DNA of 27,360 nt from positions 1 to 27,360 of IMG/VR virus record IMGVR_UViG_3300036846_000899; one strand, 5' to 3'. A model generated the notes under the pieces. That model was given only the letters and a program-made list of their open reading frames with translations, searched no databases and was not told where the DNA came from. This DNA comes from a virus. How positions within the stretch are numbered: position 1 is the stretch's first letter; each line of letters starts with the position of its first letter. The position numbers were made by a program, and so were the translations under genes. This document shows positions 20,383 to 26,190 of the stretch, piece after piece.

Positions 20383-20634
20383 TCATCCTGAAAACGAATG
20401 GGCGGCCAGCTCTGGGCGACTGGCGGGCCTTCTACCGTGCGTCAACCGGAGAATGAGGTTCCCCCGTCCGGCGACGTCGGTCTTGCGGTAGATGTTGTGC
20501 AGCGAGCTGGCCACCTGATGGATCGTATAGCCCAGCTTGGCGGCGATCTCGCGATTGCGCAGACCACGGGCGACGAGGAGGGCAATCGCCGCCTCGCGCC
20601 CGCTCAGGATGATGCAAGGGTTAGGCGCACGCAA
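20383..20634 (-). CDS. Stand-alone LuxR-type (GerE) DNA-binding protein
   Basis: An 83-residue transcription-factor domain with no receiver or ligand domain. It has LSGRE at residues 10-14, then RGLRNREIAAKLGYTIHQVA, the helix-turn-helix, then NIYRKTDVAGRGNLILRL, matching the GerE pattern. The only usable start is TTG at 20634, which overlaps the end of the PEP-CTERM gene by 14 bases, so the two are translationally linked on the minus strand. It probably regulates its partner, a host surface operon, or phage genes. Which of these is unknown. DNA-binding fold: confident. Start codon: moderate. Confidence 0.77.
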   Translation of the reverse strand: MRAPNPCIILSGREAAIALLVARGLRNREIAAKLGYTIHQVASSLHNIYRKTDVAGRGNLILRLTHGRRPASRPELAAHSFSG

Positions 20635-21226
20635 CTTTGCGCCGACGCTGACGGAACGCGAACGTCAATCCGACAAAGCCCAGAAGCATCATGCCCCAGG
20701 TCGCTGGCTCCGGCACGGCCGAGGCCGTTTCGATACGGTTGTGCTCGAAGCTGAATATGCTTCCGGTGGCGTCAGTTAGCGTTAGCGAGTTGATCACTTC
20801 ACCGTTGATGGCGTTCACCGTGAACCCAGACTGGGAGTTGTTGATGGTGCCGAGATCAAAGTTGAATGTTCCGTCCGTAGCGTTCACGGCCAGCTTCACG
20901 TCGCCTGTGCCCGACAAACTGAACACCTCCGTCGTGGTACCAACTAGGAAGGTGTTGGTCGGATCGAACACTTGATCGGTCAGAGTGCCGGTGTTGCCGA
21001 TCTTTATGTCGTTGCCGTTGGCAGCGAACGTAAAGCCGGTCGCTAGGTTCGTGTAACGAACCACATCGAGATGCTGGCCGTTGAGATGACCTAGAGCACT
21101 GTTGGTGCTCGAGGAATCAGAGACGACGTTGTCGCCCGTCCCACTTAGTTGATCGAGGACTACAACGTCTGCCATCGCTGGCGATGACGCAAGCAGCATC
21201 GCTGCCGCGAGTACCCGTGCTTTCAT
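20621..21226 (-). CDS. Secreted PEP-CTERM sorting-domain protein
   Basis: A 201-residue exported protein. Residues 1-19 are a signal peptide ending AMA before Asp20. The central part is beta-rich and Asn/Thr/Gly/Asp-rich, as in extracellular adhesion or matrix proteins. From residue 171 it carries VPEPATWGMMLLGFVGLTFA then RQRRRK: the PEP motif, a single transmembrane helix and a basic tail of the PEPxxWA-CTERM class, which exosortases process at the inner membrane. The ATG at 21226 has GGGAG upstream. No exosortase gene is seen here, so it must use a host one. In phage DNA this is an accessory (moron) gene. Nothing suggests it is a virion protein. Confidence 0.92.
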   Translation of the reverse strand: MKARVLAAAMLLASSPAMADVVVLDQLSGTGDNVVSDSSSTNSALGHLNGQHLDVVRYTNLATGFTFAANGNDIKIGNTGTLTDQVFDPTNTFLVGTTTEVFSLSGTGDVKLAVNATDGTFNFDLGTINNSQSGFTVNAINGEVINSLTLTDATGSIFSFEHNRIETASAVPEPATWGMMLLGFVGLTFAFRQRRRKVACA

Positions 21227-21316: not shown

Positions 21317-21562
21317 TTAATCGAACCGGAACGCCATCTGCTTGTCCGAGAATTTTGCCTCCGCAGCCGCGACCGCCGCATGCAGCGCCGCGAACATCTG
21401 CTCGATCTCGGCCGGCGTGTAGTCGTAGCTCGATCGCCGCGACAGGTTGCCGAGCAGCGCAATCAAGCGCACCAACCGGGTCATCCGGCGCTCGGCGATG
21501 GCGCGAAACTTGATCGCCTTGTCGCTCAGTGGCAGCTGCTCGGTATCGACGATTTGTTCCAT
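21317..21562 (-). CDS. Conserved-looking small phage protein (81 aa)
   Basis: ATG 21562 has a strong AGGAGG upstream on the minus strand. The product is helical: KAIKFRAIAERRMTRLVRLI, then LGNLSRRSSYDYTPAEIEQM and FAALHAAVAAAEAKF. The NLSxxxxYxYTxxEIxxxF..AL pattern reminds me of a widespread small phage protein family of unknown role, from memory only. It is the last gene of the early operon before the PEP-CTERM gene, which has its own 90-base leader. Confidence 0.76.
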   Translation of the reverse strand: MEQIVDTEQLPLSDKAIKFRAIAERRMTRLVRLIALLGNLSRRSSYDYTPAEIEQMFAALHAAVAAAEAKFSDKQMAFRFD

Positions 21563-22032: not shown

Positions 22033-22743
22033 TCAATTCAAACTCGCCCACGGCTCTGCGCCGGGAGCCATTTCCGCCGACAGCTTCAGCAACTCGGCGA
22101 GCTTGTACGGACCCGCGCGTCGCGCCCGGTCGGTTTCCACGTCCAGCTCGCTGCAGAAAAAGAACAGCTCCTTGGCCAGCTTGCGCTGATAGTCCTCGTC
22201 GACCTCGGCAATGAAATGCACGGGCGGCATCAGCGGGTGGTAGCACCACAGGTGCGCGGCCTGATACCCACCGACAAACATCTGCCCTTGCACCTGTGGT
22301 TTGTAGTTGTCCTCCGGCCCGCGCAGGATGTACTCAATCTGCACCCACGGCGACGGGCATTTGATCTCGACGCATTGCTTGATCGCCGACCCGTGCCGCT
22401 TCATCACCCGTTCCGGCGAGGCGGAAACCGTGTTGTGATCGTTGGTCACCAGACCGATTTTGTCCATGTACCAGCCGCGCGTAATCTGCCGCTCGAACGC
22501 TTCCGCCGCTTCGTCCTCGATCTCGTGGCCGCGTTTCATCCAGTAGCTTTGATAGCCGCCGTCCATCGATTGCTGCAGCAGCCGCTCAGCGATCAGCTTG
22601 AACATGTATTTCATGCGCCGGTCGCCGCGCGTCGGCACGCCCGTGGGCGTGATGATGTTGTGAAATTGCGACGCCGATGGTTTGCCCATACGCAACTGGT
22701 GCCATTCGTCGCTGTACTGAGCGCAATTGTGCTCGACGCTCAT
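22033..22743 (-). CDS. YqaJ/lambda-Exo-type 5'-3' exonuclease
   Basis: A 236-residue recombination nuclease. The N-terminus SDEWHQLRMGKPSASQFHNI has the W..LR.G...AS signature; GHEIEDEA (Glu76) is the first metal-site motif; VSASPERV stands where the family has SPDG; CVEIKCPS (Glu126, Lys128) is the ExK motif; YKPQVQGQMFVGG is the closing helix. The usual Asp of SPD is Glu111 here. The start ATG 22743 overlaps the upstream stop (ATGA); an earlier in-frame ATG at 22779 lies inside the upstream gene. With the SSB-tailed protein it forms an Exo plus ssDNA-binding recombination set. Confidence 0.86.
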   Translation of the reverse strand: MSVEHNCAQYSDEWHQLRMGKPSASQFHNIITPTGVPTRGDRRMKYMFKLIAERLLQQSMDGGYQSYWMKRGHEIEDEAAEAFERQITRGWYMDKIGLVTNDHNTVSASPERVMKRHGSAIKQCVEIKCPSPWVQIEYILRGPEDNYKPQVQGQMFVGGYQAAHLWCYHPLMPPVHFIAEVDEDYQRKLAKELFFFCSELDVETDRARRAGPYKLAELLKLSAEMAPGAEPWASLN

Positions 22744-22895
22744 TTGCGCACCTGTTTCGCAATGAAGCAATCGAGCCAATCGATGTTGTCCGCGAGCACC
22801 TCCTCCTGCAGTGTCGGCCCATCAACAACGAACCGCTGCACTTGCTGCAGCATCCTTAGGATTGAACGCAGATAATGTAGATCACTCTCACTCAT
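22740..22895 (-). CDS. Small acidic helical protein (51 aa)
   Basis: The frame is ATG 22895 to TGA 22740-22742 on the minus strand. Both ends are ATGA overlaps with neighbours, which is the strongest evidence that it is real. It encodes a helix-rich peptide (LHYLRSILRMLQQVQRFVVD, then QEEVLADNIDWLDCFIAKQ). It lies immediately before the exonuclease and could be an accessory to it. Below normal gene-caller length; no family known. Confidence 0.66.
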   Translation of the reverse strand: MSESDLHYLRSILRMLQQVQRFVVDGPTLQEEVLADNIDWLDCFIAKQVRK

Positions 22896-24324: not shown

Positions 24325-24651
24325 ATGGCAATGCGGACCGAAGACACCGAGCGCGCCCTGAAAATCGTCGAGCGGCTGATGAAGGTCGCCCCCAACAGCA
24401 GCCTGGGGCGGTTTGCCGTTCGCATGCGCTCGCGCCTCAACGCCACGCCGATGGCAACCATTCTGGAAAAGGTTCCAGGCGAAAGCATTTCCGCCAAGGC
24501 GCGCATCCTGGGCGTCTCGCGCCAGACCCTCCACTACTGGATCAACGGCGATACCCGGCCCGATGACGTGCAGGCCCGCAAGATCGAGAAGCTCACCGGC
24601 TTTTCCGTTGCCGTGATCCGGGGCCGCGTCGACGACTACCGCCCCGCTTAG
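24325..24651 (+). CDS. Helix-turn-helix transcriptional regulator
   Basis: A 108-residue protein with a Cro/CI-like DNA-binding region at about residues 52-92: SISAKARILGVSRQTLHYWI then NGDTRPDDVQARKIEKLTG. The N-terminal half is a basic helical region. It diverges from the early operon and is therefore the best candidate for the repressor or antirepressor-type switch acting on the inverted repeat at 24278. ATG 24325 is close to GGAG; ATG 24331 has better spacing. There is no C-terminal protease or oligomerisation domain like that of lambda CI. Confidence 0.82.
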   Translation: MAMRTEDTERALKIVERLMKVAPNSSLGRFAVRMRSRLNATPMATILEKVPGESISAKARILGVSRQTLHYWINGDTRPDDVQARKIEKLTGFSVAVIRGRVDDYRPA

Positions 24652-24685: not shown

Positions 24686-24774
24686 CTGCCGGCGCGAGCG
24701 TGGGCGCGAGCCGTGGTGTACCAGCTCGCGGATATTCGCCCCAACATTCGATCCCAACGGCATGGAGGAACCTC

Positions 24775-26190
24775 ATGAACCTTGTGATCTCATCCGGGCA
24801 CGGTGCAAAGGTGTCCGGTGCATCCGGTGTGCTCAACGAAGTCACAGAAGCACGTAAGGTCTGCGATCGTGTCGGCGAGCTGCTCAAAGGCGCGAGCGTC
24901 GGCTGTAAGGTCTATCACGAAAATACGGCAACCACCGTCAACCAGAACCTCACCAACATCGTCAACTACCACAACAGCCAGACGCGCGATCGTGATGTCT
25001 CGGTGCATTTCAATGCCTACCAGACCACGTCGAAGCCGATGGGCACGGAATGCCTCTACGTGTCGCAGCAAGCCTGGGCCGACCGCGTCGCCAAGGCAAT
25101 GGCCAAGTCCGGCGGGTTCATTAATCGCGGGCCGAAGAAACGCACCGATCTGTATTTCCTGAACAACACAGCCATGCCGGCGGTGCTCCTGGAAGTGTGC
25201 TTCGTCGACAGCTCGGCGGACGCGGACCTGTACCGGACCAACTTCGAGGCCATCTGCCGCGCCATCGCCGAGAGCCTCGCCGAGATCACCCTACCCGGCG
25301 AGCCGACCGAGCCACCCGTAGAGCCCGAGCCGCCCGGGGTGGAAATACCGCCCGAGGTGGAAATCCCGACCGGCGAAAACGTAGTCGACATTGCCATCAC
25401 CGTGACCGGCGATCCGACCGTCGTCATCAACGGCGACACCGTTACCGAGGGCGACCCTAACAACATCGTCAACCTGACCCTGGATTATTCCGGTGACGTG
25501 ATGGTGACCGTCGACGGCGAGGACTTTCAGGTCGCCCCGCCGCCACCGTCGAACCGGCCGACCGTCATGCTGGGCTCGCAAGGTCCCGACGTCGAAACCG
25601 TTCAGCAATGCCTGATGGCAAGCGGTGAGGTCGATGGTGACTTTGGCTCGCGCACCGAGAACGCGGTCAAAGAATTCCAGGACGAACAGAGCCTTGCAAA
25701 CGACGGCATTGTCGGGCCGGCAACCTGGACGAAGCTTGAAGAAGTTTACAGCCTGCCGCCCTACACGCCGGCAACCTTCGCGCCCAACCACCAGAACATC
25801 ATCTGCTCGGTGTTTGGCGGTAATGCCGATCCCAACGACAGCGCCTATCCACCCTACGATTTCATCACCGACCAGGAGGTGTCGTGCGCGCTGCCGTGGA
25901 AATGGGCGGGCGAGCGGCCGCTGGTGCTGGTGCAGAACATCGCCAACGGGCGCAAGACCGTCTGCCAAATCCGCGACGTCGGCCCGTGGCTGATCGACGA
26001 CGACAAGTACGTGCTCGGCGACGCGCGCCCCATAGCCGAGCCCAAAGGCTCAACGATCCCGCGCGGCAAGAACCAGGGCAAGACCAGCAACGGGGCCGGC
26101 ATTGACCTGACCCCAGCAGCTGCCAAGGCGATCGGTTTGTCGGGAATGGGAACGGTCAGCTGGACGTTTGTCTCGGACGCGGTCGCGTAG
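24775..26190 (+). CDS. Endolysin: amidase, peptidoglycan-binding and RlpA-like barrel domains
   Basis: A 471-residue lysis enzyme. Residues of about 1-172 are an Amidase_3-type zinc N-acetylmuramoyl-L-alanine amidase (SSGHG with His9, a Glu near 22-25, SVHFNAY with His78, LLEVCFVDS with Glu140). A Pro/Glu linker (175-200) and a beta segment (200-258) lead to a peptidoglycan-binding type 1 domain (about 263-322, MLGSQGPDVETVQQCL, VDGDFGSRTENAVKEFQ). Residues of about 338-469 resemble an RlpA-like double-psi barrel (VCQIRDVGPW; NGAGIDLTPAAAKAIGLSG). ATG 24775 has GGAGGAA six bases upstream. No signal peptide, so it needs a holin. Confidence 0.93.
   Translation: MNLVISSGHGAKVSGASGVLNEVTEARKVCDRVGELLKGASVGCKVYHENTATTVNQNLTNIVNYHNSQTRDRDVSVHFNAYQTTSKPMGTECLYVSQQAWADRVAKAMAKSGGFINRGPKKRTDLYFLNNTAMPAVLLEVCFVDSSADADLYRTNFEAICRAIAESLAEITLPGEPTEPPVEPEPPGVEIPPEVEIPTGENVVDIAITVTGDPTVVINGDTVTEGDPNNIVNLTLDYSGDVMVTVDGEDFQVAPPPPSNRPTVMLGSQGPDVETVQQCLMASGEVDGDFGSRTENAVKEFQDEQSLANDGIVGPATWTKLEEVYSLPPYTPATFAPNHQNIICSVFGGNADPNDSAYPPYDFITDQEVSCALPWKWAGERPLVLVQNIANGRKTVCQIRDVGPWLIDDDKYVLGDARPIAEPKGSTIPRGKNQGKTSNGAGIDLTPAAAKAIGLSGMGTVSWTFVSDAVA

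Follow-up and report, generated by a model that had tools for sequence, protein, structure and literature searches.

Why would a phage carry a gene for a protein with a PEP-CTERM tail, the hallmark of bacterial exosortase substrates? The question is raised by an IMG/VR virus record of 27,360 bases (the window; L and G labels denote the viral loci and contigs compared with it), in which such a gene overlaps one for a stand-alone GerE/LuxR-type DNA-binding protein. An initial annotation read the two as a surface protein with its own LuxR-type regulator, placed as a moron at the boundary of late and early genes.

Analysis of the gene product confirms that this is a true PEP-CTERM protein gene carried by a phage. 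Table 1 shows the layout of the protein, which begins with MKARVLAAAMLLASSPAMA up to the cleavage site and continues as DVVVLDQLSGTGDN...SAVPEPATWGMMLLGFVGLTFAFRQRRRKVACA. It exceeds curated cut-offs for PEP-CTERM proteins, both for Pfam PEP-CTERM (PF07589; 32.5 bits, E 8e-08, residues 170-195, cut-off 20.7) and for NCBIfam TIGR02595 (23.6, cut-off 16). Its score on PEPxxWA-CTERM (NF035944) is 33.7 bits, just below the cut-off of 35, which the relatives L096 and L128 exceed (36.8 and 40.9, respectively). Judged by reading the sequence, the protein has an N-terminal signal peptide and is otherwise without a membrane segment except in the tail, VPEPATWGMMLLGFVGLTFAFRQRRRK. Since there is no cysteine close to the cleavage site, the signal is not of the lipoprotein type. 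The mature part contains 14.6% Thr, 10.6% Asn, 10.6% Gly and 9.3% Ser, 2.6% Lys+Arg and no Cys at all, in agreement with the composition bias described for PEP-CTERM proteins (PMC1569441).

Table 1. Positions of the features of the window that are discussed in the text.
Feature	Position	Strand	Evidence or remark
Stand-alone GerE/LuxR-type DNA-binding ORF, 83 aa, TTG start	20383..20634	-	Pfam GerE
Gene for the 201-aa PEP-CTERM protein of virus family A	20621..21226	-	ORF, Pfam PEP-CTERM, viral relatives
PEP-CTERM tail: PEP motif, hydrophobic stretch, basic cluster	20624..20716	-	Pfam and NCBIfam matches
Mature domain, 151 aa, predicted CBM-like beta-sandwich	20717..21169	-	Alignments, AlphaFold2, Foldseek/VIA CBM29 matches
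Signal peptide MKARVLAAAMLLASSPAMA, likely signal peptidase I site between AMA and D	21170..21226	-	Sequence
Small ORF, 81 aa, upstream of the PEP gene on the same strand	21317..21562	-	Homologue in L003/L004
YqaJ-like exonuclease, early recombination block	22033..22779	-	Pfam YqaJ, 64.3 bits
Small HTH-like protein, directly before the endolysin; possible regulator	24325..24651	+	108 aa by reading
Endolysin	24700..26190	+	Amidase_3 and peptidoglycan-binding domains

A sigma-54 site, which is described as common but not universal upstream of PEP-CTERM genes in Proteobacteria, was not found upstream on the minus strand when up to one mismatch was allowed, and around the gene there were no sigma-70 promoters, terminators or Rfam RNAs above chance. 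The upstream palindrome CTAGGGGTAG was considered as a shared operator and rejected because it occurs in the window only.

The surroundings of the gene are those of a phage. Plus-strand structural genes (terminase-like, major head protein and a tape/transglycosylase protein) lie to the left of the PEP/GerE pair, and to the right are minus-strand genes including the YqaJ exonuclease, followed by the plus-strand amidase endolysin. A homologue of the 81-residue ORF (47% over 78 aa) is found near the PEP pair in L003/L004, on the opposite strand. L005, whose kinship with the window phage shows in its endolysin (two segments, at 60 and 83%) and its YqaJ exonuclease (36%), retains a PEP gene adjoining YqaJ, and proteins of related contigs match terminase, portal, integrase, primase, RecT and baseplate families. 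Host DNA or an assembly junction is ruled out as the source of the gene, since phage genes lie on both sides of it, its GC content is similar to that of the remaining window and it recurs in other phage records. No hosts with the identical pair were found either; relatives exist in phages and the sampled genomes are without the domain. The initial annotation was right to place the gene in a phage. The site that it described is also recognisable, where the early block on the minus strand ends, but the gene is not a lone moron and belongs instead to a widespread virus family. Elsewhere in the window, the best conserved segment of the endolysin is its C-terminal ~140 aa (the segment that is 83% identical in L005), and the HTH-like protein encoded before it has a 35% homologue in the same locus. 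Host assignment through TerL or endolysin similarity gave weak, mixed matches only.

Relatives of the PEP gene were found at 13 viral loci, with four contigs at 83-90% identity, two at 57-61% and the others weaker. When an alignment of eight mature-domain sequences was used for a wider viral search, 138 IMG/VR loci were found to encode a relative, of which 80 were kept. The mature domain represents a virus family not described before, here called family A, and is confined to viruses in the samples searched. It was missing from all 397 genomes searched in the order to which an assembly titled 'Rhizobiales bacterium 65-9' belongs, and from all 398 genomes across Pseudomonadota, the phylum of that assembly, each sample covering a few hundred species; in a control, a profile of 59 sequences picked up the domain in each of 33 family-A virus records and in 0 of 4 records with only other PEP families. 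A large species-genome scan, seeded with exact peptides of the window protein only, returned tail-driven matches, mostly from Sphingomonadales and other Alphaproteobacteria, and none of these loci fits the domain profile. Exosortases are present in five example genomes with similar tails. No relatives of the PEP or LuxR protein were found among 50,697 GenBank phages, and none of a VPGP-tailed member (see below) in the phages or plasmids searched. The mature domain has no match in Pfam (including its CBM families), PHROG, PADLOC or among known defence families, and no convincing PDB sequence match.

An AlphaFold2 model of the mature domain, built with 59 sequences, is all-beta with a pLDDT of 96.0 and a pTM of 0.90. 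The best Foldseek matches to this model are CBM29 (E 3.7e-4). With VIA-align, the first row is an insecticidal protein domain (Z 9.3), tied with carbohydrate-binding modules; the CBM29 chain aligns over 117 residues with Z 8.7 and rmsd 3.3, and the next rows are other carbohydrate-binding modules. The resemblance to CBM29 extends over most of the predicted domain, but identity is only ~12% and there is no Pfam CBM match. The fold is best called CBM-like, with glycan binding as a prediction from the model. Residues N53, D54, K56, E124, E142, H143 and R145 are conserved.

The C-terminal tails of family A are not conserved in the same way as the domain. The 68 unique members comprise 35 with a VPGP tail, 17 with a PLPA-type tail, 13 with a PEP-type tail and three in which the tail is truncated or unclear. 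L007, for example, has the same mature domain as the window protein and scores 29.1 on the VPLPA-CTERM model (TIGR03370; cut-off 25.35), where the window member carries PEP instead. A maximum-likelihood tree of 59 domains with their tails removed requires 12 changes of tail class, against a minimum of two, which shows that tails change repeatedly while the domain is retained.

The commonest tail consists of VPGPxxGAGxPGL, a hydrophobic stretch and a basic cluster. It passes none of the NCBIfam models and is found in at least 120 viral stretches, where it begins 30-48 residues from the C-terminus. The form VPGP[IV][VA]GAG[LI]PG, again with a hydrophobic stretch and a basic cluster, is seen on several unrelated secreted phage proteins (L264-L342). 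In bacteria the VPGP tail was absent from samples of 150, 398 and 385 genomes, with a control run alongside, and a sorting enzyme for this tail is therefore hypothetical. It may represent a new sorting signal, or the tail may serve simply as a membrane anchor.

Some family-A genes have company. Of 65 non-redundant family-A loci, 18 have another gene for a secreted, tailed protein no more than 1.5 kb away. These partners fall into several mature families, three of which occur with more than one tail class; one of the three, family B, is also found next to other domains in L008, L011 and L012. The model of the family-B partner is all-beta and less certain (pLDDT 80.6), and its top-ranked match, a domain from a surface glycan-binding protein (Z 9.5), is tied with unrelated domains. 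It can be seen that the two tails of a pair belong to the same class in 18/18 pairs by eye and in 17/18 by an automatic rule, which misread the two VPIP-type tails of L207. When the pairs were reduced to 12 clusters all 12 agreed, compared with 4.5 expected by permutation (p 5e-5). The simplest reading of this concordance is that the host determines the tail class. Recombination between adjacent tails may also contribute; DNA at 20639-20719 of the window is also similar, at 80%, to the part of the family-B gene of G001 and G002 that encodes its tail. Tandem PEP-CTERM genes occur in L002, L003 and L008-L012, where at least five mature-domain groups are combined as A+B, B+A, D+B, C+E and C+B on contigs with few or no other genes in common. 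In a phage that already has the tandem pair, a VPGP-like tail is also present on a third secreted protein (L238:3980-4831, minus strand).

When set against two entire contigs, G001 (39 kb) and G002 (49 kb), the window showed DNA similarity in the PEP gene only, amounting to 90% over 512-518 bp and extending from just past the signal peptide into the tail. At the protein level, G002 also has a distant endolysin and one small ORF in common with the window. The dN/dS ratio of the PEP gene is about 0.29. Together, the gene-confined similarity and the dN/dS ratio indicate that unrelated phages exchange the gene and that purifying selection acts on it.

What, then, might the protein do? Recognisable YqaJ, Erf-like, helicase and nuclease genes in the neighbourhood nearly always share the strand of the family-A gene, and endolysin and tail-fibre-like neighbours are mostly on the opposite one. 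The strand shared with recombination and replication genes suggests early or middle expression; early expression is usual for superinfection-exclusion proteins (PMC9586334). The explanation that we favour, at not quite an even chance, is that family A is a virus-only family of secreted, glycan-binding-like proteins displayed on the infected or lysogenic cell through C-terminal sorting by the host. Processing, location and function are here inferred. The protein would be expressed with the early or middle genes, as gene orientation implies, and exported by Sec through its signal peptide; the PEP tail would then retain it in the inner membrane until a host exosortase cleaved at PEP, delivering the mature domain to the cell surface or the exopolysaccharide layer. 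In the last and least certain step, the CBM-like domain might cover receptor glycans and so reduce superinfection and unproductive re-adsorption. In phages of hosts with other sorting systems the same domain would ride on a VPLPA-type or VPGP-type tail. Display by a host exosortase is moderately supported by the evidence from the tails, and masking of surface glycans is proposed by analogy. A role at the cell surface, already suggested in the initial annotation, is judged the likeliest.

Several observations weigh against display of this kind. In L006 the family-A gene is found near terminase and portal genes, outside the early block, and the concordance of paired tails may stem in part from recombination between them. 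The commonest tail class, VPGP, did not turn up in any of the bacterial genomes sampled. Glycan binding, moreover, is predicted from a common fold at Z near 8.7, which weakens this part of the explanation.

A displayed protein might instead benefit the host cell as a lysogenic conversion or biofilm factor that alters exopolysaccharide binding, aggregation or attachment, a role that we consider rather unlikely. PEP-CTERM proteins have been tied to exopolysaccharide and floc formation (PMC1569441; Gao 2018, as described in papers that cite it), the CBM-like fold of family A would fit such a role, and integrases are encoded near the family-A gene in L007 and near a family-B/D pair in L011. However, no integrase was identified in the window; the family-A gene is mostly found on the strand of early replication genes and not in an isolated lysogeny locus; and the sampled bacterial genomes, where prophages would be expected, contain no relative.

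The reading of the initial annotation, in which the PEP and GerE genes form a dedicated module and the LuxR-type protein controls the surface protein, appears improbable. The overlapping helix-turn-helix gene that it described is present: the ORF matches Pfam GerE (PF00196) with 31.1 bits over residues 9-61 (cut-off 23.5), and its first 14 nt overlap the end of the PEP gene. A GerE gene also directly follows the tandem PEP genes of L009 and lies ~1 kb on in L010, and GerE is commoner in PEP-tailed records than in the others (5/13 vs 1/35, Fisher p 0.004), although this enrichment may reflect a host-lineage effect. However, GerE was adjacent to the family-A gene in none of the 42 family-A virus records tested; three of these have GerE above the cut-off, in each case far from the family-A gene (G779:C1:4557-4712, G780:C1:32976-33131 and G772:C1:24752-24916). 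The window LuxR protein had no tblastn match in any viral locus examined. LuxR as a general partner was rejected; GerE directly adjoins PEP-CTERM genes only in the window and L009, and the search for the same partnership in other phages that the initial annotation had proposed yielded a single further case of direct adjacency. We conclude that it correctly recognised a PEP-CTERM phage protein, but that a dedicated regulator is not supported and that a single cargo gene is too narrow a description; the span 20383-21226 is that of the pair, and the recurrent unit is the PEP gene alone.

Finally, it is very doubtful that the protein is an envelope component of the lysis programme, resembling a unimolecular spanin with a membrane segment and a beta domain in the periplasm. 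In favour of such a role, about a dozen family-A loci have an endolysin gene close by, and the window protein has a signal sequence and a C-terminal membrane segment. Against it, these endolysin genes mostly lie on the other strand, the window protein is without the N-terminal lipobox cysteine of such spanins (its signal ends in AMA, followed by DVV), and the family exchanges recognised sorting tails (PEP, VPLPA), which would be unexpected of a spanin.

Both halves of the favoured explanation have known counterparts. The window protein resembles the PEP-CTERM/EpsH exosortase substrates (TIGR02595, PF07589; PMC1569441) in its signal peptide, PEP motif, hydrophobic stretch and basic end, as well as in being low in Cys and Lys/Arg and high in Thr, Asn and Ser. 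It differs from them in that the family is phage-encoded, the domain is absent from sampled bacteria, homologues swap tails and no sigma-54 site was found upstream. Like the T5 Llp-type exclusion lipoproteins (PMC9586334), it is a small secreted phage protein of the envelope with expected early expression and proposed receptor masking. Llp, however, is an outer-membrane lipoprotein that acts from the periplasm on a protein receptor, whereas family A has a sorting tail and a CBM-like fold, and the likeness is one of analogy. A literature search for PEP-CTERM or exosortase in phages gave only incidental co-mentions, and a virus family that joins a conserved secreted domain to swappable tails was not found in the literature and libraries searched.

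In general terms, we tentatively propose that soil phages have a virus-specific class of surface-display proteins that would use the sorting enzyme of the host, with the tail (PEP, VPLPA or the new VPGPxxGAGxPG) being swapped to re-target a conserved, putatively glycan-binding domain. How Gram-negative bacteria sort proteins by their C-termini is poorly understood. Family A, with its constant domain and exchanged sorting tails, amounts to a natural domain-swap experiment. The tail may report the sorting system of the host and could thereby help to assign hosts to soil phages, while the VPGP tail could expose a new sorting signal. Family A also offers a testable way for phages to remodel the surface of the infected cell. 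If the proposal is true, phages would have a new means of excluding superinfection or remodelling the surface, and a sorting signal not described before would come to light.
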